In this document: one piece after another, positions 3,249 through 62,939 of the stretch
Layout of the letters: the number at the start of each line of letters is the position of its first letter
Position numbering within the stretch: position 1 is the first letter of the stretch
Origin: Microcaldota archaeon
GTDB lineage: Archaea > Micrarchaeota > Micrarchaeia > Micrarchaeales > CABMGC01
Reading direction: 5' to 3'
DNA: 64,000 nt
Assembly: GCA_021802765.1 (NCBI GenBank)
Contig: JAJZRI010000001.1
Location: 62,001 to 126,000 of the forward strand
Position numbers and translations under genes: made by a program
The notes under the pieces: generated by a model
Database searches by the model: none
The model's input: only the letters and a program-made list of their open reading frames with translations
Told to the model about the DNA's origin: nothing

Positions 3249-4073
3249 TCAAAGCCTCGAGAGGTATCGCTCTATCCTGTACATGCGTGACTTTAGCCTC
3301 TTTCTGTCCTTCCTTCTGGTGAGCTCCGCCCATTCCCTTGATATCCTTGCAAATTCATTCTCTACCTTGTGCACGTTGGGGACGCCTACCTGAAGGTATG
3401 AGTAGAGCTCCGGACTTGCGTCGACTATGCTCTTTACAAAGGACTCCAGGAACCTAAAGCTCGTGCTGCTCGTGCTCATGAACTTGTGTATCTTAAGGCT
3501 TCTCCATGTGTCACCGGTAACGAATCCGACGTAGTGGGTGAGCGAGAGCATCGCACCTATCATCCTGTCGTGCTTCTGGGGACTCATGATCACCACGTTG
3601 AATTTGCTCTTCCTAAGATACGCGCGAAGCTCGCTTGCGAAGGCGCGCTCCTTGCCACTTGTCGGAGTCAATATGAAGTTCTGGCCTTCTGCCTGCGCGG
3701 ATGGACCAAACATCGGATGCGTCCCTAAGGCCACATTCTTCTTAATGTGCATGTGCAGGAGCTTGACCGGAACTGACTTTACAGAGGTTATGTCAATAAC
3801 CTTCTGCCCCTCTTCGAGATGCGGCGAGAGCTCCTCGAGAACACCGTCGAGTCGCTCGGCCATCACTGAGACGATTATCAGGTCTGCACCTTTTATCGCA
3901 TCGGAGTTGCTTTTTGCCGCGGCAACGCCCAGATTCCTTGCTGCCCTGAAGCTTTTCAGCCGGCTTCTTCCGGATATGACCACCTTGCACCCCTTCCTTG
4001 AGAAGAAGCGCGAGAACCACTGGCCCATAAGTCCGTATCCGCCGATTATAGCTACCCTCTTTGGATTAAACAT
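3249..4073 (-). CDS. tyrA: Prephenate dehydrogenase
   Basis: Oxidative decarboxylation of prephenate to 4-hydroxyphenylpyruvate for tyrosine synthesis. The N-terminus has a Rossmann dinucleotide motif (VAIIGGYGLMGQWF). THPMFGPSAQ and the helical C-terminal dimerisation region with THYVGFVTGD are typical of archaeal TyrA. There is no fused chorismate mutase domain, unlike enteric TyrA; one is encoded at 48746-49738. ATG at 4071-4073 is preferred over the TTG nine bases upstream. It overlaps the pheA stop by 8 bp and is translationally coupled to it. Confidence 0.9.
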   Translation of the reverse strand: MFNPKRVAIIGGYGLMGQWFSRFFSRKGCKVVISGRSRLKSFRAARNLGVAAAKSNSDAIKGADLIIVSVMAERLDGVLEELSPHLEEGQKVIDITSVKSVPVKLLHMHIKKNVALGTHPMFGPSAQAEGQNFILTPTSGKERAFASELRAYLRKSKFNVVIMSPQKHDRMIGAMLSLTHYVGFVTGDTWRSLKIHKFMSTSSTSFRFLESFVKSIVDASPELYSYLQVGVPNVHKVENEFARISREWAELTRRKDRKRLKSRMYRIERYLSRL

Positions 4074-4890
4074 TCTTGCCAAACCTCGCCCTCGGATAGG
4101 AGCCTAGTATCTTAACAAAATCAGAATTGTCATAAAGTTCCTCAACGGCTTTTTTGACATTGGAGCTGTTTATGCCGCCGTCGCAGTCCACATAGAAGTT
4201 GTACTCCCATGGAGTGCCAGGTATTGGCCTTGACTGTATGTAAAGCAGGTTTACCCTATTGTCGGCAAAAGAGTTAAGGGCCTTGAAGAGCGAGCCGGGC
4301 TTGTCCTTTGCGCTGAATGCTATTGTTGTCTTGTTGGGCGGCTTTGCCTTTGTATCCTTTGAGATTATCAGGAAGCGCGTGTAGTTGTGCCTGCTTGACT
4401 GTATCTTCCTTGCAAGCACATCCATGCCATACACCTTCGCAGCCCTCTCGCTTGCTATTGCAGCGGTGTTCCTTATCTTCGTCTCCTTGAGCATGCGCGC
4501 ACTGCCGGCAGTATCGTAGAACGGAACTGAATCGAACTTGTGGCTGTCTAGAAATTCCCTGCACTGGCCGAGCGCCTGCGGGTGCGAGTAGACCATCTTT
4601 ATGTCGGCCATCCTGGTGCCCTCTGGCGCCATAAGGCAATGGGATACCTCCAGTATAGTCTCACCAACTATTGAGAGCTCCGATTTGAGTAGAAGGTCGT
4701 ATGTCTGGGTCACGGCGCCTTCTATGGAATTCTCTATCGGCACGACCCCAACCCTTGAGTCTGTATCCGCAGACTCGAACACCTCCGGAAGGAACTTGCA
4801 CCCCTTGAGCTTCGAGGCCTTGCCCAAGTATTTTATCGCCGCCTGCTCGCTATAAGCCCCTGGAACGCCAAAATATGCTGCATTGAACAT
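4066..4890 (-). CDS. pheA: Prephenate dehydratase with ACT domain
   Basis: Converts prephenate to phenylpyruvate for phenylalanine synthesis. The N-terminal catalytic domain shows YFGVPGAYSEQAA, VGVVPIENSIEG and, later, HNYTRFLIIS, the classic dehydratase signatures. The C-terminal ACT domain (TTIAFSAKDKPGSLFKALNSF, then IQSRPIPGTPWEYNFYVD) is the usual allosteric phenylalanine site, so feedback inhibition is likely. I chose the ATG at 4890 (MFNAAYFGVPG) because the longer reading frame adds 13 unrelated residues. It is first in a pheA-tyrA operon, with an AT-rich promoter region shared with the divergent MFS gene. Confidence 0.92.
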   Translation of the reverse strand: MFNAAYFGVPGAYSEQAAIKYLGKASKLKGCKFLPEVFESADTDSRVGVVPIENSIEGAVTQTYDLLLKSELSIVGETILEVSHCLMAPEGTRMADIKMVYSHPQALGQCREFLDSHKFDSVPFYDTAGSARMLKETKIRNTAAIASERAAKVYGMDVLARKIQSSRHNYTRFLIISKDTKAKPPNKTTIAFSAKDKPGSLFKALNSFADNRVNLLYIQSRPIPGTPWEYNFYVDCDGGINSSNVKKAVEELYDNSDFVKILGSYPRARFGKNV

Positions 4891-4992
4891 TAAAACACAC
4901 TGCCGCGCAGGAATTGGCGGGTCATACAACCTGTGATTGGATAAATACTAATATAAAATATGCATATGTGTATATCTGACAGAGGCTTCTTG

Positions 4993-18280: not shown

Positions 18281-19300
18281 TCAGTAGAGCTTGCCTATGC
18301 TCTCTACGTTCAGAGCAGCAACCTTCTCCGCTTCCTTTGCCCGCTCTCCGAACTTTGCCTTTACTCCAGTCACTACAGACATGACGCGTACCTCGTCCCT
18401 GAGCTCTGGAAGCATTCTTGCTCCGAAGATGACATTGGCATTGCCAGCGACGCCTTCAGTGACGCCCTCCCCTATCTGGGTTGCATCGCTGATGGTCAGG
18501 TTCGATCCTCCTACTACCTGTATGAGCCCTCCCTTTGCCCCATCGTAATCTACTGAGAGCAATGGGTGGGACCTGGTAGAGGCGATTGCCTGCGCCACTC
18601 TATCCGTTCCTCTTCCGTATCCGAGGCTTATGACGGCAGTTCCGGTGTTTCTTACAACGTTCTTAAGATCAGCAAAGTCCAGGTTGATGAGGCTAGGCAG
18701 GGTTATGCAGTCGGCTATTCCTTTTACGGCGTTGCCAGTCACATTGTCTACTACCTCGAATGCCCGTTCTATAGGGAGGTTTGGCACGTATGACAGTAGC
18801 TTGTCGTTCTCTATCACTATTGTGCAGTCAGCCTCCTTATTGAGCTGCTCGAGCCCCCAGTCAGCCTTGAATCTTCTGCTCCTTTCAAGCGAGAACGGAT
18901 ATGTCACAGTGGCGATCACTGTAGCTCCCATCTCCCTTGCGACTCTTGCAACTACTGGTGCTGCCCCTGTTCCGGTTCCTCCTCCCATTCCTGCGGCCAC
19001 GAAGACGAGATTGTACCCTTCAAGGGCGGTCTCTATCTCTCCGCGGCTCACATCTGCGCATTTTGCAGCCACTTCTGGGAAGCCTCCGGCGCCAAGTCCG
19101 TTGGTTATCTCCTTGCCTATGAGCAGCTTCTTGTTGGCCTTTATCATGTTTAGGTGGCCTATGTCCGTATTAACGGCCACCGTGTCTGCACTCTTTATCC
19201 CATACCCAAATAGCCTGTTTACCAGGTTACTTCCCTGACCTCCTACCCCAACCACAGCTATCTTTGGGGTGAAGGCATCATAGTCGAATTGGTCAACCAT
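18281..19300 (-). CDS. ftsZ: Cell-division GTPase FtsZ, paralog with GGQGSN loop
   Basis: A 339-residue tubulin-like GTPase. The N-terminal nucleotide loop reads GVGGQGSNLVNRL rather than GGAGNN. The tubulin signature GGGTGTG is at ~106-112 and the T7 synergy loop LINLDFADL at ~206-211, so polymerisation-coupled GTP hydrolysis is expected. The short C-terminal tail (KAKFGERAKEAEKVAAL...) probably contacts SepF or other partners. Its start has a Shine-Dalgarno GGTGAC. It follows the other ftsZ by 36 bp in one operon. Confidence 0.95.
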   Translation of the reverse strand: MVDQFDYDAFTPKIAVVGVGGQGSNLVNRLFGYGIKSADTVAVNTDIGHLNMIKANKKLLIGKEITNGLGAGGFPEVAAKCADVSRGEIETALEGYNLVFVAAGMGGGTGTGAAPVVARVAREMGATVIATVTYPFSLERSRRFKADWGLEQLNKEADCTIVIENDKLLSYVPNLPIERAFEVVDNVTGNAVKGIADCITLPSLINLDFADLKNVVRNTGTAVISLGYGRGTDRVAQAIASTRSHPLLSVDYDGAKGGLIQVVGGSNLTISDATQIGEGVTEGVAGNANVIFGARMLPELRDEVRVMSVVTGVKAKFGERAKEAEKVAALNVESIGKLY

Positions 19301-19336
19301 ATCAAGTCACCAAATTGTGATATGAAGGCAAGGCCC

Positions 19337-20380
19337 TCATATCATGTCCAGGCCTCCGTACTTTACCTGTTGTGGCTCGTCAGCGAACTTTCCGACTATG
19401 CTGGATCCCTTTACTCCTGTCACTATGGCAACTATCTCTAGCTGGCCTTCGTATCCAGGTATGATCCTTGCGCCCCACTTGACATTTGCCTTTGGATCCA
19501 TCCTTTCGGTTATGATCTCTCCGGCCTTTATTGCGTCACCAAGGCTCAGGTCAGATGCGCCTGATATGTGGATTAGTGCTCCCTTCGCGTTCTCGAAGTC
19601 TACATCAAGAAGCTTGTTCTTTAGGACCGCCTCAGCCGCAGAGCCAACCTTGTCGTTGCCCTTTCCTGTTCCGACTGATATGAATCCTACGTCTCCGCTT
19701 CCCATGATCGACCTTACGTCTGCGAAGTCTATGTTGATCAGGCTTGGCTGTGTTATTGTCCAGACAAGTCCGCCTATTGCCTTTGCGAGTATGTCATCCG
19801 CAACTGCGAATGCCTCGTTCATTGGCAGGTTTGGAACAAGCTTCACGAGCCTGTTGTTGTCCAGAAGTATCACGCTGTCGCTGAACTTCCTTAGCCTCTG
19901 GATTCCCTCCTCTGCCTTTACCTTTCTCACTCTTTCGAGGTCGAATGGATAAGTGACCATAGATACCACTATTGCGCCCTGCTCCTTTGCTATCTGCGCA
20001 ATCACAGGTATTGCTCCGGTTCCGGTTCCTCCTCCCATACCAGCGCATAGGAAGACGAGCTGTGCTCCTCCGAGGACCTCTTCTAGCTGCTGCCTGTCGG
20101 CCTCTGCGGCCTTTGCACCAACTTCAGGGTCTCCTCCTGCTCCAAGACCTCGTGTCATGCTCTTTCCTATAAGTATCTTCTTTATCCTGTCGTCAACTAT
20201 CTTGAAGTGCGTTACGTCAGTGTTGACCGCAACTAGTTCAGTCCCCTTGACACCCACTTTCAGTAATCGGTTTACGGTGTTGTTACCTCCGCCTCCTACC
20301 CCTATAGTCACTATTTTTATCTGCGGAGCGCCGCTTGCGCTCTCCTCGCTTCTACTCAAATCATTGCCGAATTCTACCAT
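19337..20380 (-). CDS. ftsZ: Cell-division GTPase FtsZ, paralog with GGGGNN loop
   Basis: A 347-residue FtsZ with GVGGGGNNTVNRL (~27-39), GGGTGTG (~116-122) and T7 loop NIDFAD (~216-221). N- and C-terminal tails are short. Archaea with two FtsZs use one to scaffold the ring and the other to constrict; which is which cannot be decided here. A TATA-like ATATAAATATATT (about 20408-20420) is upstream and the first gene's product probably sets the operon dosage. Confidence 0.95.
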   Translation of the reverse strand: MVEFGNDLSRSEESASGAPQIKIVTIGVGGGGNNTVNRLLKVGVKGTELVAVNTDVTHFKIVDDRIKKILIGKSMTRGLGAGGDPEVGAKAAEADRQQLEEVLGGAQLVFLCAGMGGGTGTGAIPVIAQIAKEQGAIVVSMVTYPFDLERVRKVKAEEGIQRLRKFSDSVILLDNNRLVKLVPNLPMNEAFAVADDILAKAIGGLVWTITQPSLINIDFADVRSIMGSGDVGFISVGTGKGNDKVGSAAEAVLKNKLLDVDFENAKGALIHISGASDLSLGDAIKAGEIITERMDPKANVKWGARIIPGYEGQLEIVAIVTGVKGSSIVGKFADEPQQVKYGGLDMI

Positions 20381-45461: not shown

Positions 45462-47075
45462 ATGGCACAAAAACCTGCTCGTGGTCGCAAGGAAGTTGAT
45501 GTGAACAAAAAGTACTATATCTTTCTGCTTGCTATTGTTGTATTTGCTATCATTTACTCCATAGTATTTATAGATGGTCCATCATATTTTGGTGACGACG
45601 TAACTTACTTATCTTTGGCATATAACGTTTTGCATGGACACTTCATTGAGAATGGTTACATATTCAGCGTAAGGCTTATGCAAATAATGCCTATTGCATT
45701 ATTCTACAAACTCTTTGGTGTAAATCTGATTACGGATTCTGCATGGGACATAACTTCATTCATAGGCATAATAATAATATCATTTTTCATGGCAAAGGAA
45801 CTCTTCAATGAAAGGGCCGGTGCAATTGCGGCAACTCTGGCTGCATTCTTCCCGTTGATTGTTGTGTATTCATCCACTATAAGTGAAGACGTGCCCCTTG
45901 CATTCCTCACATCTCTGGCCCTACTAGCCCTGCTATATGGTCAGAAAAGAAATTCAGAAAAGTGGTATATGCTCTGTGGGATCCTGTTAGTGGCATCCTT
46001 CCTGGTGTCACCCGAAGCTGCAGTCATATGGATAATAGTAATTGCATACCTAATCATCGAGGTGCTGCGTAAAAAAATAAGAATAGATAAAAAGCTAGCT
46101 CACCTGGCATATGGGATTGCAATAGCCCTAATTGTCTTAATGACATTTAATTATCTCAACTCCCAAAACCCATTAGTGACTTTTGATGTAAATCTACATT
46201 TCTATAGCGCTGTTGGCGGTAATGACACCATACCCTCAACCAATACCAACCTAATGTTCTATCCAAACGTGATGTTTCCTTACAATCTATACTCATTTCT
46301 AGCCACGTTTGTAATCACACATAACCTCTCGCTTGGAAATCTTGTGCAATATGTATATTATGCAAATCAGAATACGTCCACTGGATTCTACTTCTACGCC
46401 GTCGTGGCATCTTTGCTTTACTTACTCGTTAGACTTGAGAAAAAATCATATTTTGCAATATTCTTTCTGGTGGCCGGTTTTCTATATCTAGAATTTGGAC
46501 CTATGCACATATCTCTTTCTCCATTTGAGTATTTGCCCAGTTATAGGCTTGATAGGTTTCTTATGATAATAGCTGTGCCGGCATTGGTCGTTATGGGCAT
46601 TGCTATAGCAAAATTTATCGAAGACAATCCGTTTAGAAGCAAGTACATAACAGGTGTGGCATCAGTTTTAATGATATCATTCTTGATTGGAACGTCAATA
46701 CCCATAAACATGAACTGGCACCAAGTTCTAGTATATGAAAGGTATGACCAGATGGCAATCTCAAATTATTTGCTTGGAGTTTCAAATTATAGCGCAGTGT
46801 ACTTCCCCAATTCTGATCCTAGCATAAGCATATACGCTCGCTTTGTAAACGCCGAGCGCTTCGTGGCGTATTCGTCGTTTAGCAATTGCAGCGCATTCAA
46901 AAACAACTCATATGTTGTTCTACCTATAAATCCGCCTGCCGGGAAGGATAATGTATCGAAATGCCAATATTGGCAGCTTGTTCTAAGCCCATCCCCCCAG
47001 GGCAACTTTACAGATTCGACAATATATCAAGGCAGATATGCAATTGCAAGGCTCTACTATTTGCCTGCCCATTAA
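45462..47075 (+). CDS. GT-C membrane glycosyltransferase (PMT/ArnT-like)
   Basis: A 537-residue protein. After a short N-terminal tail, a first helix (~17-35) leads to the loop DGPSYFGDDVTYLSLAYNVLHG, where the GDD acids mark the catalytic site of GT-C enzymes using lipid-linked sugars. About 10-12 helices follow, then an extracellular C-terminal domain from ~residue 430. It probably glycosylates surface proteins, such as the Thr-rich one upstream; that link is inference. Confidence 0.82.
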   Translation: MAQKPARGRKEVDVNKKYYIFLLAIVVFAIIYSIVFIDGPSYFGDDVTYLSLAYNVLHGHFIENGYIFSVRLMQIMPIALFYKLFGVNLITDSAWDITSFIGIIIISFFMAKELFNERAGAIAATLAAFFPLIVVYSSTISEDVPLAFLTSLALLALLYGQKRNSEKWYMLCGILLVASFLVSPEAAVIWIIVIAYLIIEVLRKKIRIDKKLAHLAYGIAIALIVLMTFNYLNSQNPLVTFDVNLHFYSAVGGNDTIPSTNTNLMFYPNVMFPYNLYSFLATFVITHNLSLGNLVQYVYYANQNTSTGFYFYAVVASLLYLLVRLEKKSYFAIFFLVAGFLYLEFGPMHISLSPFEYLPSYRLDRFLMIIAVPALVVMGIAIAKFIEDNPFRSKYITGVASVLMISFLIGTSIPINMNWHQVLVYERYDQMAISNYLLGVSNYSAVYFPNSDPSISIYARFVNAERFVAYSSFSNCSAFKNNSYVVLPINPPAGKDNVSKCQYWQLVLSPSPQGNFTDSTIYQGRYAIARLYYLPAH

Positions 47076-47504: not shown

Positions 47505-48704
47505 TTATGATTTATGTAACTTATACGAAAATGAGCTTAGAAAAGCAAGATATACTTCGTAAATGGCTTTGAACTCACTAAGATCTACATATTCGTCATT
47601 GGAATGGGCCATATCAAAATTTCCAGGACCATAAGAGATGGTTGGTATTCCCTTATACCTGAAGAACCTTCCATCAGAGGCGCCGGTAGACACTATTGGC
47701 TTAGGGTATTTTGCATGTCTTGCTACGGATTTCATGAAAGAGTGCACATGCCTATCATTCATGTCAGTATAATTTGACTCGGAACTTGGGCATTTTTCTA
47801 CTTCTGCGGCGGGAGCTAATTTCCTTACCGTGTCCAGGACTTTTTTTGAGGATACTCCAGGAGGTAGACGCATATCAACATCGGCCTCGCAGGAATCTGG
47901 AACAACATTTACCTTATTACCACCTCGTAATACCGATGGATTAATGGTTATTTTTACTGCGTCTGAACCGAACAGAGTGCGGCTATTGAGTAGAGCAGGC
48001 CTAACTGCTTCTGGAAATTTGATGGGCATTTTAGATATTCCAGATAGCTTGTCTAGCGCCCCAATCATTGCAACTACTGCATTTTTACCCAAGGAAGGCC
48101 TGCTGCTATGCGATGCCTTGCCTTGAGTCCTCAACTTGACGTGAAGCACCCCTTTTTCCCCTATCCCTACATATCTTAATCCAGTAGGCTCGGCTACAAG
48201 CACCAGGTCAGGAGAGTATTTTTCCGCAAGATATCTTGAGCAATTAAATCCGCCCGTCTCTTCGTCTGAGACGGCAGTGAATATCAATCTTTGACCAGGA
48301 TGTTCCTTCATTCTGCTCATAAGTAACATGAACATTGCAAGACCAGATTTCATGTCGGCTGCGCCTCTGCCGAAGAGTTTGCCGTTTGAGACAGTGCCTG
48401 AAAATGGATCGCGCACCCATTTTCCATCACCCTGTGGCACAACGTCCATGTGCCCATTTAACAGTATTGTCTTCTTGCCGGTGCCAACCTCTGCGATTAC
48501 TACAGGATGGCCTTTCCTGAATTCAATTATGCGAGATCGTATGCCATGGGCAGTAAACCACCCAGCTATGAATCTGCTTATTCTGTCAAGATTCTCCAAT
48601 CTTCCCTCATGATTGACTGAGGGTATCTTTATGAGTTTTGAAGCAAGATCAAAGAGTTCAACTACTTCTTCCTTTTCTGACGTATGTATTATTCTGCTAC
48701 TCAA
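47505..48704 (-). CDS. M20-family metallopeptidase/deacylase (ArgE/DapE-like)
   Basis: A 399-residue enzyme. The metal motifs are LLNGHMDVVPQGD and GRGAADMKSG, then AVSDEETGGFN with the catalytic Glu, VAEPTGL and, late, SYGPGNFDMAHSNDEY. The lid/dimer domain is intact. Acetylornithine deacetylase or succinyl-diaminopimelate desuccinylase are likely, but a carboxypeptidase is possible. Starts at TTG. No arginine or lysine operon is adjacent. Confidence 0.85.
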   Translation of the reverse strand: MSSRIIHTSEKEEVVELFDLASKLIKIPSVNHEGRLENLDRISRFIAGWFTAHGIRSRIIEFRKGHPVVIAEVGTGKKTILLNGHMDVVPQGDGKWVRDPFSGTVSNGKLFGRGAADMKSGLAMFMLLMSRMKEHPGQRLIFTAVSDEETGGFNCSRYLAEKYSPDLVLVAEPTGLRYVGIGEKGVLHVKLRTQGKASHSSRPSLGKNAVVAMIGALDKLSGISKMPIKFPEAVRPALLNSRTLFGSDAVKITINPSVLRGGNKVNVVPDSCEADVDMRLPPGVSSKKVLDTVRKLAPAAEVEKCPSSESNYTDMNDRHVHSFMKSVARHAKYPKPIVSTGASDGRFFRYKGIPTISYGPGNFDMAHSNDEYVDLSEFKAIYEVYLAFLSSFSYKLHKS

Positions 48705-48745: not shown

Positions 48746-49738
48746 TCAATCTCCTCTCACTACTGAAGACAGACCTGCGTGCCCTTTGTTAATAGGACAT
48801 ACTATCACTATAGAGTCTCCTCGACCATTGTCCATGCCCAATTTGCTATTGAATAGATGCAATAGTTCAAGATTATCAACAGTTGGAACATGACCATATA
48901 GCGATTTTCCATAGGTGCCTCTTTCAACAAATTGGTCTGCCAGATAGCTATTCATTCCGAGCTTTGACGCTACGTATTTTCCTATTTCTATGGCTTCTGC
49001 TTCTGGGGCATTTGTGTTGGGATATACGCAGCTGACCAAATTCTGTGTGGCCCGGTATACTACAATGCTTTGTGTTCTCATGGTAAGATAATCCGGATTT
49101 ACCTCACCAAGCGCAGTCGACAAAGATCCATAAAATAATCCATTTTTCTGGTAGTTCTTGTTTATTGCAATCCCATTGAGATATAAGATGGCCTTTCCGT
49201 GATACTCGTATTTGATGTAAGATGCAAATCCTGCCAATTCCCCATCATGAAACAATAGATGCAACGTATCTCCTTTGACATGATTCTCCATGTCCGATTG
49301 TTTCTTGCTCTTGCCAAATGCATTTCTTGCTATATCAGCAAATTGGTGCAACAACCCTTTCGGCAGAGCAAAATCTACATTGTTAATTGAAACAATCTTA
49401 TTGTCGTTGTTTAACGGTATTGTTCTAGAGTCATGCTTAGATACCAATTCAGTTACTTGCTGTTCCAATAATACTCTTTTTTGAATTCTTTTACTGTCAT
49501 TTATAAGAACCCGGAATATTTTATCTACAGACTTTTGATCTGCACCGAATCTTACTGCTGCATCACGTGCTTTTTCCAGCACTACTGTTTCACGATTCTT
49601 ATCTAATATCCCGATTCCTTTTTCTGCCTTGGCTTTACTTATTTCTATTGACAGCAATTCCCTATCTCTTAGCAATTTCACCAAATCCATAGTAATTTGG
49701 TCAATCCTTGTTCGACTAACTTCTATTGTATTTGCCAT
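48746..49738 (-). CDS. Chorismate mutase (AroQ) fused to a GNAT-like acetyltransferase
   Basis: A 330-residue protein. Residues 1-90 are an AroQ domain with every active-site residue of the E. coli enzyme conserved: R9, R26, K37, D46, R49, E50 and Q86 (in order, equivalent to R11, R28, K39, D48, R51, E52, Q88). Residues ~120-330 look like a GNAT fold: HLLFHDGELAGFASYIKYEY, then LNGIAINKNYQKNGLFYGSLSTAL. It should make prephenate for the PheA and TyrA encoded at 3249-4890. The acetyltransferase substrate is unknown. ATG 49738 is chosen over an upstream TTG. Confidence 0.78.
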   Translation of the reverse strand: MANTIEVSRTRIDQITMDLVKLLRDRELLSIEISKAKAEKGIGILDKNRETVVLEKARDAAVRFGADQKSVDKIFRVLINDSKRIQKRVLLEQQVTELVSKHDSRTIPLNNDNKIVSINNVDFALPKGLLHQFADIARNAFGKSKKQSDMENHVKGDTLHLLFHDGELAGFASYIKYEYHGKAILYLNGIAINKNYQKNGLFYGSLSTALGEVNPDYLTMRTQSIVVYRATQNLVSCVYPNTNAPEAEAIEIGKYVASKLGMNSYLADQFVERGTYGKSLYGHVPTVDNLELLHLFNSKLGMDNGRGDSIVIVCPINKGHAGLSSVVRGD

Positions 49739-49766: not shown

Positions 49767-49937
49767 CTAGTCAGCGTAGACTATTCTCCATGATTCATAT
49801 CCGTCCGGAACCCACTTTACCGGTCTTTCAGCATTGTTAAGCGGGATGGTGGCTGGGGAGGGTCCGAAAGCTAGGGGATCTGTTCGGTGATAATCCAGTC
49901 CGAGGACGTACTTCAAAACACGCAGTTTCATACCCAT
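49767..49937 (-). CDS. 56-residue unknown small protein upstream of the chorismate mutase fusion
   Basis: ORF MGMKLRVLKYVLGLDYHRTD... ending WVPDGYESWRIVYAD with a TAG stop. Composition is that of a real protein: aromatic residues, prolines and charged residues evenly spread, no low complexity. A TATA-like GTATATATAC (49979-49988) lies about 45 bp upstream, so a short leader is expected. It ends 28 bp before the AroQ-GNAT gene in the same direction, so the two may be co-transcribed. No family recognised. Confidence 0.55.
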   Translation of the reverse strand: MGMKLRVLKYVLGLDYHRTDPLAFGPSPATIPLNNAERPVKWVPDGYESWRIVYAD

Positions 49938-54686: not shown

Positions 54687-54760
54687 AGCCCCGAGAGGGA
54701 TTTGAACCCTCGATATCCAGTTTACGAAACTGGCGCTTTACCGGGCTAAGCCACCGGGGC
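54687..54760 (-). tRNA. tRNA-Thr(CGU)
   Basis: The reverse complement is an intronless tRNA with acceptor stem GCCCCGG/TCGGGGC, D arm with GGCTTAGCCCGGTAAAGC, anticodon stem CCAGT/ACTGG and loop TTCGTAA (anticodon CGT), and T arm AGGGTTCAAATCCCT. CCA is not encoded. Its first 15 bases are also the last codons of the endonuclease gene. A TATA-like TATTTAAAG (54783-54796 region) lies about 30 bp upstream, inside that gene. Confidence 0.95.
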
Positions 54761-55459
54761 AACGTATTCCATAATGATTTCTCTTGCTTTAAATAAGTGT
54801 CTGTTATTTGAGAATCCAATCTCTTTTATATACTTATAGACCTGTTCTTTTCCGTTAAGATATACCCAATGCATCTCGCCATGCAATGTCATTTGTTTTG
54901 AAATAGTTGGTTTATAACCGTTGGTTGAGAGTAGTCTGCGGATCTGATATACTAAACGCCTACTTTTGACATGTAGTATAATTCTTGGATAAGGTTCTTT
55001 GTACACTTTTCGTTTATCGAAAGACAAGCAACCATCAGTGTCGATTATTCCTCTTATGCAAGCTTTTGAAAGATTCCAATCTTTGGAGATTGTTTTTGGT
55101 ATTGTAATATTGGCGGCTTTGCCCTTTCCTGAACGAATACCTAAATTGTTTAGAAAAATGGTAAACTTTTTATTATTTATGCGCAGACGAACGCCAAATA
55201 GTCCCATTCTTATTGAAGGAACATAAGATAATTCATTTTCAATAATTGGGAGTAAATTCTGTTTAAAGTAAGCCATATCTAATTTACTATCTCCTGAAAT
55301 TTCGACATATCTGTTTTTGTATATATTTCCATCTCCGATTATTGCACCTATTAGTTCAGACATGTTGTAGCTAATTTTCATAAACTCACTTTGCAATTTA
55401 GTTTGGATGGAGCTTCTGGAGACTTTACGCCTTCGCGGTAGATTATAAATAAGTATCAT
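54746..55459 (-). CDS. LAGLIDADG homing endonuclease
   Basis: A 237-residue protein with two LAGLIDADG-type motifs, ELIGAIIGDGN (35-45) and CIRGIIDTDGC (134-144), each with the catalytic acidic residue (Asp). It is free-standing rather than inside an intron, A/T-rich, and its final 15 bases including the TAG stop are the 5' end of tRNA-Thr(CGU). A start at ATG 55381 (MKISYNMSELIGAI) is also possible. It probably cleaves the flank of the tRNA gene or once did. Confidence 0.85.
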   Translation of the reverse strand: MILIYNLPRRRKVSRSSIQTKLQSEFMKISYNMSELIGAIIGDGNIYKNRYVEISGDSKLDMAYFKQNLLPIIENELSYVPSIRMGLFGVRLRINNKKFTIFLNNLGIRSGKGKAANITIPKTISKDWNLSKACIRGIIDTDGCLSFDKRKVYKEPYPRIILHVKSRRLVYQIRRLLSTNGYKPTISKQMTLHGEMHWVYLNGKEQVYKYIKEIGFSNNRHLFKAREIIMEYVAPVA

Positions 55460-59249: not shown

Positions 59250-60125
59250 CTAGAGCAGGGTGTATCCCGACTCCCATGATGAAGAATAAGAGACACTTGA
59301 TGATGTTGCACTATCAAAGTTTCCGGAATAATCTGCAACATTGCCGTTTAGAGGCCACCAACCTACGATGTGCGTGGGGTCTATAGGTGCGCCGCCGATG
59401 CCCTCTTGGTAAAGAGCATTTATCTCGTTAGCTGAAAGAGAAGTATTGTATGCTTGAACATTGGCAATCTCTCCAGTAAGATAACTTGCCACAGTATCTG
59501 TGCAATCACTTGGTCCAGGCTTGCAGCCACTTACAAAAGTCGTCCAATAATCCAGGGAGCCTGAGGGGGAGTGCTGGCCTGTGCCGCTTGCCTCAAGTGA
59601 CCCATCTACGTAAAGAGAGTATATGCCACTGGCTGTTGGATTATAACTAAAGGCGACAAAGTACCAACCTGGAGATGGAACCGAATAGGATATGGGAGCA
59701 TTATTCCAGATATCTCCCCATATTATCGGATACTGGGCACTTATGAATGGCATGCTCCACCCTCCTGATGGCGGTGAATTTACTACGCCGAATATAGGTC
59801 CGTTGGTAGTGGCAGACATATAGACCCAGGCAGATGCAGTAAGAGGATTGTTCTGGCCATAATAAGTTCCAAGTGGAGCATAAGCATAGCTGGTTCCACC
59901 GAGCCGCGCAACATACTGCGGGGCAGGGCCATTGCACTGGCCTTCAAGATTTGATCCATGAACAGTCTTTATCACTTCGCATGACCCTGCGGGGATACGT
60001 GGGACCGAATTTCCTGAGCTAAAGAATCCGAGTTGAAAGAGGGCAACTAGAACAATGGCAATTATCATTAGGGCCCAGCCATAGGTCATTAGATACTCCA
60101 TTGCGGACTGGAGCTTCAAGCGCAT
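59250..60125 (-). CDS. Pilin-like anchored LamG-domain protein, copy 1
   Basis: A 291-residue protein. QSAMEYLMTYGWALMIIAIVLVALFQLGFF (residues 6-35) is the class III (archaeal type IV pilin-like) signal, with cleavage expected before QSAMEYL. After ~20 residues the LamG/concanavalin-like sandwich begins (ASAWVYM, then VDGSL), and the C-terminus shows EIANVQAYNTSLSANEINALYQEGIGGAPIDPTHIVGWWPLNGN. Two internal Cys pairs are visible. Fourth (last transcribed) member of the array. Its promoter is CTTTTAAATC at about 60145-60157. Confidence 0.85.
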   Translation of the reverse strand: MRLKLQSAMEYLMTYGWALMIIAIVLVALFQLGFFSSGNSVPRIPAGSCEVIKTVHGSNLEGQCNGPAPQYVARLGGTSYAYAPLGTYYGQNNPLTASAWVYMSATTNGPIFGVVNSPPSGGWSMPFISAQYPIIWGDIWNNAPISYSVPSPGWYFVAFSYNPTASGIYSLYVDGSLEASGTGQHSPSGSLDYWTTFVSGCKPGPSDCTDTVASYLTGEIANVQAYNTSLSANEINALYQEGIGGAPIDPTHIVGWWPLNGNVADYSGNFDSATSSSVSYSSSWESGYTLL

Positions 60126-60186
60126 ATTATTCCTATCCCAATAAAGGATTTAAAAGAATGGTCATTGCTACTTGCCGATTGAACCA

Positions 60187-61089
60187 TCATGGTGAGGCGT
60201 ATCCAGACGCCCAGGTAGAGGTGTAGGAGACGCCACCCACAACTGCGCCGTTGTTATTGTTTCCCGAATAATCCTGCGCATTGCCATTGAGCGGCCACCA
60301 GCCGACGATGTGTGTCGGGTCGATTGGCGAGCCGCCGATGCCCTCCTGGTAAAGAGCGGTTATTTCAGTCGGCGATAGGGAGGTGTTATACACCTGCAAG
60401 TTGGATACCATTCCATTGAAATACATCCATCCATTTGCATACGGCCATGAAGTTGCATATCCAGTACCTATGAAATACAAATATTGGTTATTATATGATT
60501 CCTCTGAAGTCGATTGGGATCCAACAAACTGTCCGTCCAGATATAACGACTCGACGCCGTTTGAGTAGGTATCCACAAGCTGATGCCAGTTACTATTATT
60601 GTAGGAAACTGGTGTAACCAACTGAGACGAAGTGCTACCATGCCAAAAGACCGAGGACCTGATAAAACCGTTGCTGTCAAGATATATTGCAGGCACCCAG
60701 CCACCTGGTGCTCCGCCCGGCATCACATTATCATCTTGAGCAAATATTGCCCCGCTTTCAGAGGTCTTGAACCATGCTGAAAAAGTCAGAAAATAGCTAT
60801 TTGTAGATCCAGATGTTGGATAATTAAACGTGGCAGAAGGCAGAAGTAGATAGCCGTTGCCATTGAACTGCGCTACGAATTGTGGAGGCTGGTTATTGCA
60901 CTGGCCTGCGAGGCTGCTTCCAGCAGCTGTATGAACAGCCTGACAAGCGCCTGCTGATGCATGGGAGGAAAGATTGGTTCCATTGAAGACGCCCAACTGG
61001 AAAAGGGCAATTATCACTATAGCAATAGCAAGAACAGCCCACCCATAGGTCATCAGATACTCCATTGCCGGCTGGGATCTAAATGGCAT
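60187..61089 (-). CDS. Pilin-like anchored LamG-domain protein, copy 2
   Basis: A 300-residue paralog with the same QSAMEYL-type signal (QPAMEYLMTYGWAV), an ACQAVHTAAGSSLAGQC segment, a sandwich with TFSAWFKTSESGAIFAQDD, and the shared C-terminus IDPTHIVGWWPLNGNAQDYSG. Its own TATA-like CTTTTAAACT lies near 61110-61120. It is 61 bp upstream of copy 1. Confidence 0.85.
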   Translation of the reverse strand: MPFRSQPAMEYLMTYGWAVLAIAIVIIALFQLGVFNGTNLSSHASAGACQAVHTAAGSSLAGQCNNQPPQFVAQFNGNGYLLLPSATFNYPTSGSTNSYFLTFSAWFKTSESGAIFAQDDNVMPGGAPGGWVPAIYLDSNGFIRSSVFWHGSTSSQLVTPVSYNNSNWHQLVDTYSNGVESLYLDGQFVGSQSTSEESYNNQYLYFIGTGYATSWPYANGWMYFNGMVSNLQVYNTSLSPTEITALYQEGIGGSPIDPTHIVGWWPLNGNAQDYSGNNNNGAVVGGVSYTSTWASGYASP

Positions 61090-61137
61090 GATATTTTATC
61101 TGATAAAAAGTTTAAAAGAACCGAAGTAGGTATATGT

Positions 61138-62000
61138 TCAGGGCGCAATATATCCGGAGGTCCATGATCCATTGTATGATATATCTGTCGGAACGCCATT
61201 GTTGCCGTTTCCGCTGTAATCGTTTGCATTGCCATTGAGAGGCCACCAGCCGACGATGTGTGTCGGATCGATCGGCACGCCGCCGATGCCTTCGATGTAG
61301 AGAGCACTTATCTCACCTGAGGAGAGAGTAGTGTTGTATATCTGCACGTCAGCTACTTGACCTGAGGTGCAGCATCCAGTGCCCTGACCATATCCCATTA
61401 TGTTGAAGGATCCTCTGGACAGCGCGTTGAATGTGCCTGGACAGTAATCAACTGCAGCTATCTGTGATCCGTCTTGGTACAGCACTGCAGAAGGAGAGGA
61501 TAGACTAACAGTAGCTGCAACAAAATGCCACCTGCCGTCGCTGAGCTCTGGAGAAGAAGGGTAGTTCGCACAATTGGATACGGAAGAAGTATCTATGCAT
61601 ATGCCTAAGGCGCTTGCTGAATCTATAAGAAAGTTCCATCCCTGAGTTGATGCAGATCTTCCAACAATAGTCATAAAGCCGTTGTTGCGGGTGTTGATCC
61701 ACGCGGTTATTGTAAAAGTCGACGCGTCAAATGCGTCAGGATTGTTTATGTTTATTTCACTATTGTGATTCGTACTGAACTGGGCAACATACTGTGGTAT
61801 TGCGCTATTGCACTGACCTGCAAGGCTGCTTCCAGCAGCATTGTGAACGGCCTGACAGGCACCAGTAACAGAATGCGGAGTGAAACTTGAGTTGCTAAAA
61901 AACCTAATTGAAACATGGCTATTATCACTATTGCAACAGTAAGCAATGCCCACCCATAGGACAATAGGTATTCAATTGCCGATTGAAGCTTCAAATGCAT
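61138..62000 (-). pseudogene. Pilin-like anchored LamG-domain protein, copy 3, frameshifted
   Basis: The signal segment (MHLKLQSAIEYLLSYGWALLTVAIVIIAMFQLGF) is in one frame and the rest (SNSSFTPHSVTGACQAVHNAAGSSLAGQC... to GWWPLNGNANDYSGN) in another. The break is at an A6/T6 run (61897-61902); one extra T would restore the frame. So the gene is intact except for one base: a pseudogene, a phase-variable switch, or a sequencing slip. Confidence 0.8.
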
Positions 62001-62039
62001 ATGTAGGGAATCTGCATTAAAGATAAAAGACCTATCGGA

Positions 62040-62939
62040 TCAGGGCAGCACATATGCCGAAGTCCATGATCCATTATAAGATATCGATGATGGTATCCCA
62101 TTGTTGTAATCTCCGGAATAATCATTTGCATTGCCATTGAGAGGCCACCAGCCGACGATATGCGTAGGGTCGATTGGCGCTCCGCCGATGCCTTCCCGGT
62201 ATAGCAGGTTTATCTCATTGGAAGACAGCGAAGTGTTGTATATTTGCACGTTACTTATCTGCCCATTAAAATAATTGTTCCACGCCTGATGGTATCCTAT
62301 TATTGCAGGCCCCAGACCACTTATTGGCGATATAGCAGAACCAATCTGAGCTGTGCTCATGGGCACGATGACACCATCCACATATGCGGCTATAGCAGAC
62401 GGAGTTATAGGGTTTCCATTAGCTTCGGATAGAGTGCAGGCTATAAAATGCCATCTGCCATCATTTACAGCGGCTGACGTGTACCCACCTATCCATATAG
62501 CATTAGAATCAACGCCGCAGTTGATTGCACCTGGATGGCTTGACTGGCCGCCGTTATAGCCTATCTCAAGTGTGAAGCTCATGCCCGCTCCGCTACCGCG
62601 GTCCTGAAATATGGGATTTGCGCCTGCCGATGTTGTCATTACCCATGCAGTTATCGTATATGACGTTATGGATGTTTGATAGTATCCAGTGGATATGCTG
62701 CTGCTCTGGCCGTTGAACTGAGCAGTGTACTGGGGAATCTCATTTGTACATTGTCCAGCAAGATTACTTCCAGCTGCATTGTGCACTACCTCGCAGGCCC
62801 CTGCAATTGCACGAGATGCCAGATTAGAGCTATTGAATAGGCCCAGCTGTAACAAAGCAACAATTACTATTGCAACGATGAGTATTAACCAACCGTAGGT
62901 CATCAGATACTCCATTGCCGCCTGGAGCTTCAAGTGCAT
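62040..62939 (-). CDS. Pilin-like anchored LamG-domain protein, copy 4
   Basis: A 299-residue paralog starting MHLKLQAAMEYLMTYGWLILIVAIVIVALLQLGLF, with CEVVHNAAGSNLAGQC, a LamG sandwich (TITAWVMTT ... AAYVDGVIVPM) and the shared IDPTHIVGWWPLNGNANDYSGDYNNG end. First member of the array in transcription order. Its TATA-like CTTTTAAATC lies at about 62959-62970. Confidence 0.85.
   Translation of the reverse strand: MHLKLQAAMEYLMTYGWLILIVAIVIVALLQLGLFNSSNLASRAIAGACEVVHNAAGSNLAGQCTNEIPQYTAQFNGQSSSISTGYYQTSITSYTITAWVMTTSAGANPIFQDRGSGAGMSFTLEIGYNGGQSSHPGAINCGVDSNAIWIGGYTSAAVNDGRWHFIACTLSEANGNPITPSAIAAYVDGVIVPMSTAQIGSAISPISGLGPAIIGYHQAWNNYFNGQISNVQIYNTSLSSNEINLLYREGIGGAPIDPTHIVGWWPLNGNANDYSGDYNNGIPSSISYNGSWTSAYVLP

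Follow-up and report, generated by a model that had tools for sequence, protein, structure and literature searches.

An AroQ chorismate mutase fused to a predicted GNAT acetyltransferase in a micrarchaeal genome

The fusion gene and its two halves

We found a gene that encodes an apparent AroQ-type chorismate mutase (CM) joined to a predicted acetyltransferase of the GNAT superfamily. The gene lies in the window, that is, the whole stretch of 64,000 nucleotides that was analysed. The features considered here are listed below.

48746..49738, minus strand: CM-GNAT fusion gene, 330 aa; ATG start, reading frame without internal stop
49478..49714, minus strand: AroQ chorismate mutase domain, residues 9-87 (PF01817, 1ecm alignment, residue check)
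49403..49477, minus strand: residues 88-112, closing part of CM helix three plus the linker (in the AlphaFold model a helix spans 68-101 and strands come after it)
48788..49402, minus strand: predicted GNAT acetyltransferase domain, residues 113-317 (PF00583, alignment, AlphaFold, Foldseek)
47505..48704, minus strand: M20 ArgE/DapE-type deacylase, possible operon partner (PF01546, E 1.2e-36; TIGR01910 above cut-off)
49767..49931, minus strand: upstream ORF of 54 aa with seven aromatic residues; perhaps a leader or a small gene, perhaps a chance frame
3249..4082, minus strand: tyrA, prephenate dehydrogenase without a CM domain (PF02153, E 5e-21; PF20463)
4066..4929, minus strand: pheA, prephenate dehydratase with an ACT domain and without a CM domain (PF00800, E 9e-63)

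An alternative TTG start 12 bp further upstream of the ATG would extend the fusion protein to 334 aa. The small upstream ORF had no Pfam match and no homologue at the loci of the other genomes compared.

Judged by its sequence, the N-terminal half is apparently an intact AroQ chorismate mutase. PF01817 (CM_2) matched residues 9-87 with 52.9 bits (E 4.4e-14; Pfam cut-off 27). We aligned the protein to E. coli AroQ (EcCM, 1ecm) with phmmer. The EcCM residues R11, R28, K39, D48, R51, E52, S84 and Q88, which we take to be the catalytic ones, correspond to R9, R26, K37, D46, R49, E50, S82 and Q86 of the fusion. That is, all eight positions are kept, as the preliminary description of this DNA had maintained. 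The three CM helices are present in the AlphaFold model, with pLDDT under 50 at residues 26-47. In NCBIfam the best matches were chorismate mutases, yet all curated CM equivalogs were below cut-off. Across the genome, which is 81% complete and comprises 17 contigs (0.87 Mb), PF01817 matched the fusion alone, in keeping with the idea that no other mutase is present.

The C-terminal half is, by sequence and by model, a GNAT domain, and acetyl transfer is its predicted activity. PF00583 matched residues 155-201 with 20.5 bits in the whole protein and 21.3 bits in the domain alone (cut-off 20.7), and six of nine homologues matched PF00583 on their own (E≤1). Twelve residues are invariant among nine aligned members of the family (F141, G142, H153, G170, F171, Q197, T222, Q223, Y276, G307, D308 and S309). 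The acetyl-CoA pyrophosphate motif Q/R-x-x-G-x-G/A reads Q197-K-N-G200-L-F202 in the fusion; the Q and the G are kept and the last position is F. Residues from about 235 to 305 (~70 residues) form a family-specific insertion before the last strand. This insertion was modelled with lower confidence and bears the family motif Y-(G)...GD(S/A).

The predicted structure led to the same assignment. We modelled the fusion with AlphaFold from a five-sequence alignment of the window protein and related loci (mean pLDDT 73, pTM 0.68; pLDDT about 80-95 over residues 101-220, except 141-150). After the CM helices, the elements of the GNAT core follow in the order b1-a1-a2-b2-b3-b4-a3-b5-a4, as assigned by DSSP in two models. 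The best Foldseek matches of the fusion model were all GNATs (RimI, E 2.7e-6), and the GNAT domain alone matched GCN5 (E 1e-6). Only GNATs were among the matches listed, namely RimI, NatD, Naa50, AAC(2')-Ia, NAGS and GCN5, with probability 1.00. Acetyltransferases of protein N-termini and of histones ranked alongside AAC(2') in Foldseek, with low identity throughout. No NCBIfam equivalog of a named GNAT kind (NAGS/ArgA, RimI, AAC(2')) matched above cut-off; only AAC(2')-Ie and RimI appeared, with E about 0.1, far under their cut-offs. Thus, the GNAT-like fold first proposed from the letters alone was borne out by PF00583, the AlphaFold topology and Foldseek; the profile and structure searches, on which that proposal might have failed, returned GNAT.

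The window differs in base composition along its length. GC content is 0.37-0.41 between positions 46000 and 56000 and about 0.48 in the first 28 kb, and third-position GC is 0.25 in the CM half of the fusion and 0.62-0.66 in pheA and tyrA. The low-GC region around the fusion may have been acquired from elsewhere. Within it, on the minus strand at 54746-55459, is an ORF that by eye resembles a LAGLIDADG-type homing endonuclease (ELIGAIIGDGNIYKN). Four tandem related proteins with a common C-terminal repeat are encoded at 59250-62939 (minus strand). In three of them the N-terminus is class III signal-like (QxAMEYLMTYGW), and ORFs from related genomes have N-termini that resemble it. Two genes that look FtsZ-like by eye lie in tandem at 18281-20380 (minus strand).

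Occurrence of the fusion and supply of chorismate

We searched 164 genomes of the order to which the window genome belongs. Profile matches to the GNAT family were found in 21, to CM_2 in 26, and to prephenate dehydratase (PDT) in 35. The CM-GNAT fusion was found in two, the window genome and G087, where it is encoded by a 355-aa frame (locus L011) whose translation, on inspection, also has the eight CM catalytic positions. The survey of the architecture therefore added one genome to the one described here. Otherwise, CM in the order occurs as a stand-alone gene or as a fusion to prephenate dehydrogenase (PDH), which was read at six loci (L015, L051-L053, L056 and L057) and is the commoner fused form. 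CM_2 matches in G009, G050, G073 and G092 were rejected as GNAT fusions, being longer proteins with a different CM type. A single-protein search with the fusion found nothing among genome contigs, viral contigs or plasmids.

The GNAT half belongs to a conserved family. Homologues of residues 128-317 are mostly stand-alone genes of about 180-260 aa, and the relatives read from outside the order were stand-alone. In two genomes, G013 and G039, both domains are present as separate genes on different contigs. The presence of GNAT is associated with that of PDT across the order; this association is confounded by genus and is only suggestive.

The two fusions do not share a GNAT subfamily. In the GNAT tree, the domain from the window falls in a subfamily linked to AspA genes and the domain from G087 in one linked to amidohydrolase genes (see below), with branch support of 100/99. 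Trees in which the two domains are forced to group are worse by 78 log units (AU p=1.5e-6), and a single ancestral fusion was rejected on this basis. The CM tree was uninformative on the number of fusions (p 0.28; the sequence is too short). Based on the GNAT tree we infer that CM was joined to this family at least twice, separately and in the same domain order. A possible alternative is one fusion followed by domain replacement. With a second, independent fusion in existence, an assembly artefact or a lost stop codon was rejected as the main explanation of the gene.

The preliminary description had noted that pheA and tyrA are separate genes lacking their own mutase, and both were confirmed as such. 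It had also suggested that the fusion supplies prephenate to them. This is possible, since the fusion is the only mutase found, but it would depend on chorismate taken in from elsewhere. Neither chorismate synthase nor EPSP synthase was found in the window genome (81% complete), nor in three near-complete CM-bearing genomes of one contig each (G137, G149 and G154). Therefore chorismate or prephenate would be scavenged, or the lower branch uses something else. A lower aromatic branch without supply is seen order-wide, in G000 as well: CM was found in 26 of the 164 genomes, PDT in 35 and chorismate synthase in 3. In the cultivated relative Ca. Micrarchaeum harzensis, phenylalanine is reported to be made only from phenylpyruvate (PMC8975820). 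The retention of CM, PDT and PDH without chorismate synthase raises the question of the source of chorismate in these archaea.

Genes beside the GNAT family

We compared the genes next to GNAT family members in 20 neighbourhoods (greedy ORF calls and clustering) and at several named loci, with Pfam and NCBIfam checks. A hydrolase gene recurs beside them. In the window, 41 bp separate the stop codon of the fusion from the start of the M20 gene on the same strand. Several paralogues of this M20 gene exist, and what ties it to the fusion is an adjacency seen in a single genome. In G145, G057, G032, G013, G039 and BMS3Abin17, the GNAT gene is directly followed by an AstE/AspA-type deacylase gene (PF24827). 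In the sister subfamily (G012, G055 and G095; loci L093-L095) it is followed by an Amidohydro_2 gene, which we take to lie within the amidohydrolase superfamily that includes M38 without being M38 itself. Nearby M20 genes, encoded on the opposite strand, also accompany more distant GNAT relatives in G295 and G176.

AspA was confined to G145, G057, G032, G013 and G039 among 30 genomes checked, which were chosen, not random, and are mutually related. The hypergeometric chance of all five falling within the nine GNAT-strict genomes of the 30 is about 9e-4, a guide only, as the calculation assumes independence, leaves adjacency uncounted and applies to related, chosen genomes. G038 and G084 have stand-alone GNAT members without AspA, and AspA was not found in the window genome (81% complete).

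The partners thus belong to three non-homologous families (M14 AspA/AstE, M20 and Amidohydro_2), all from superfamilies that contain aminoacylases. Nearly all L-aminoacylases are M20 or M38 enzymes; the M14 exceptions include Acy3, which removes the acetyl group from N-acetylated aromatic amino acids (PMC11511702). Because the partner position is filled by unrelated, similarly acting hydrolases, the GNAT family is most simply read, from its gene context, as an amino-acid N-acetyltransferase with a deacylase partner.

Genes for tryptophan metabolism form the second recurrent company. The trpS gene is next in line after GNAT and hydrolase in G055 and G095 (L094, L095) and in BMS3Abin17 (L099), where the order is GNAT-AspA-trpS, and the fusion in G087 is divergent from trpS (L083). 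In G013, trpC comes after GNAT-AspA in the same orientation. Searching the 164 genomes for a TrpY-family regulator (NF053754, E 5e-44) gave matches in 8. In G013 and G039 its gene is divergent from GNAT-AspA, and in G067 and G073 from trpE; in G048 and G050 it has a divergent trpS at its side, and in G130 and G131 its neighbours are uncharacterised genes. No TrpY homologue was found in the window genome. In M. thermautotrophicus, a trpY/trpE promoter region of this kind is where TrpY acts to repress trp, and not all TrpY homologues are trp regulators, for example in T. kodakarensis (PMC6737238). There is also lysS near the GNAT relatives in G038 and G039, and given these cases the adjacency to synthetase genes may be partly housekeeping synteny.

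It is the company of trpS, TrpY, trpC and CM that suggests a link between the GNAT family and aromatic amino acids. The preliminary description had left the substrate as either an aromatic intermediate or something unrelated. Gene neighbourhoods favour the aromatic side of that choice, with an amino acid as the candidate: the substrate is probably an aromatic amino acid or tryptophan-linked. A literature search for a known tryptophan N-acetyltransferase yielded nothing usable.

Two sets of conserved sequences were noticed upstream of these genes. The TrpY-family gene of loci L143-L150 is preceded by a conserved TATATTTAAAC, and its start is overlapped by a near-palindrome, rich in AT, around TGTATATAATTATACATATG; together they are a candidate operator. 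In L080, L081 and L082, upstream of the stand-alone GNAT genes of G013, G038 and G039, a GGAGGAAT-like stretch is soon followed by a conserved CGGTGGCAAGA. Candidate readings of the CGGTGGCAAGA element are a frameshift site and a short leader ORF (RWQD or MAR).

Proposed function and known systems

The explanation we prefer, to which we give slightly less than an even chance, is a bifunctional protein in which a competent mutase feeds pheA and tyrA and an aromatic amino-acid N-acetyltransferase works with a co-encoded deacylase. The CM half would be a catalytically competent, dimer-forming AroQ supplying the two enzymes encoded elsewhere in the window. The GNAT half, with acetyl-CoA as donor, would N-acetylate an aromatic amino acid or a closely related compound, our best guess being tryptophan or a tryptophan-linked compound. 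The acetyl group could be removed by the co-encoded aminoacylase-type metallohydrolase, here M20, and M14 AspA/AstE or an amidohydrolase in relatives. The fusion would couple the CM and GNAT steps by co-expression, perhaps also by allostery. The two domains, the intact residues, the two independent fusions and the pairing with hydrolase and tryptophan genes come from the computation itself, whereas we infer the substrate, the reversibility and the bifunctionality in vivo.

The Foldseek matches to RimI, GCN5, NatD and Naa50 would suit a protein or lysine N-acetyltransferase, with CM acting partly as a chorismate or prephenate sensor that tunes acetylation; a regulatory role of AroQ is established for some fusions with DAHP synthase. 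We consider this unlikely. Structural matches within the GNAT superfamily do not tell substrates apart, and the operon partners are small-molecule aminoacylase-type hydrolases, not protein deacetylases. The idea that the fusion is fortuitous, a stop codon lost between adjacent genes whose domains are independent and share no pathway, seems to us about as improbable. Each domain occurs alone in relatives (on separate contigs in G013 and G039), just two fusions were seen, and the one in the window lies in a low-GC region that may have been acquired. However, the two fusions arose independently with the same domain order and the same GNAT family, and that family has its own links to tryptophan genes.

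We give still less weight to a GNAT whose role is the detoxification of an amino acid analogue, or whose target is an aminoacyl-tRNA such as Trp-tRNA, with the deacylase completing or reversing the step. This would account for the proximity of trpS (in the same operon at L094, L095 and L099, divergent at L083) and for lysS near the members in G038 and G039, but it leaves the two CM fusions and the proximity of trpC unexplained. GNAT toxins that acetylate aminoacyl-tRNA are smaller and accompanied by antitoxins, and no antitoxin was seen at the GNAT loci.

The bifunctional reading can be extended to a broader and more doubtful proposal, which we regard as possible though rather unlikely. DPANN archaea might run an N-acetylation/deacetylation cycle for tryptophan or other aromatics, with a GNAT and an interchangeable aminoacylase that are TrpY-adjacent in some genomes, perhaps for holding these compounds or trading them with a host. 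Fusion of the GNAT to CM in two lineages would then put prephenate formation and acetylation in one protein. The recurrent fusion, together with trpS, TrpY and three hydrolase families, suggests a missing acylation step for aromatic amino acids in host-dependent archaea, and the GNAT-AspA pair is a directly assayable hypothesis.

The pairing of an acetyltransferase gene with a following gene for a metal-dependent aminoacylase-type enzyme is also seen in ArgA/ArgE and NAT8L/aspartoacylase. Here, in contrast, the context is tryptophan and aromatic, without arginine or lysine, and three unrelated hydrolase families take part. As in the Methanothermobacter TrpY regulon (PMC6737238), a TrpY-family gene is divergent from its target operon, which is trpE in G067 and G073; in G013 and G039 the target is GNAT-AspA instead, and the window genome lacks a TrpY homologue. 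The GNAT half shares the fold of RimI, GCN5, NatD, AAC(2') and NAGS, has the Q-x-x-G part of motif A and matches PF00583 at threshold. It differs from them in the F at the last motif position (also in most of its subfamily) and in the extra segment of ~70 residues, and its identity to the solved GNATs among these is under 20%.

Fusions of AroQ are themselves already known, as CM-PDT P-proteins, CM-PDH T-proteins and CM-DAHP synthases, and have earlier been informative about the wiring of the aromatic pathway. They likewise have an N-terminal AroQ of ~90 residues with the eight catalytic positions, followed by an enzyme partner. The accessible part of an archaeal fusion survey gives CM-PDT and CM-PDT-PDH as the only CM fusions (PMC11237513). 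The preliminary description had known of no AroQ-acetyltransferase fusion; we found no report of one, whether with GNAT or another acetyltransferase, in the open-access full-text literature, but the gene in the window is not unique, as G087 has another. In the known kinds named above, the partner is an enzyme of the aromatic pathway. What appears to be new here is an AroQ fusion whose partner is a GNAT acetyltransferase, from a GNAT family not described before.
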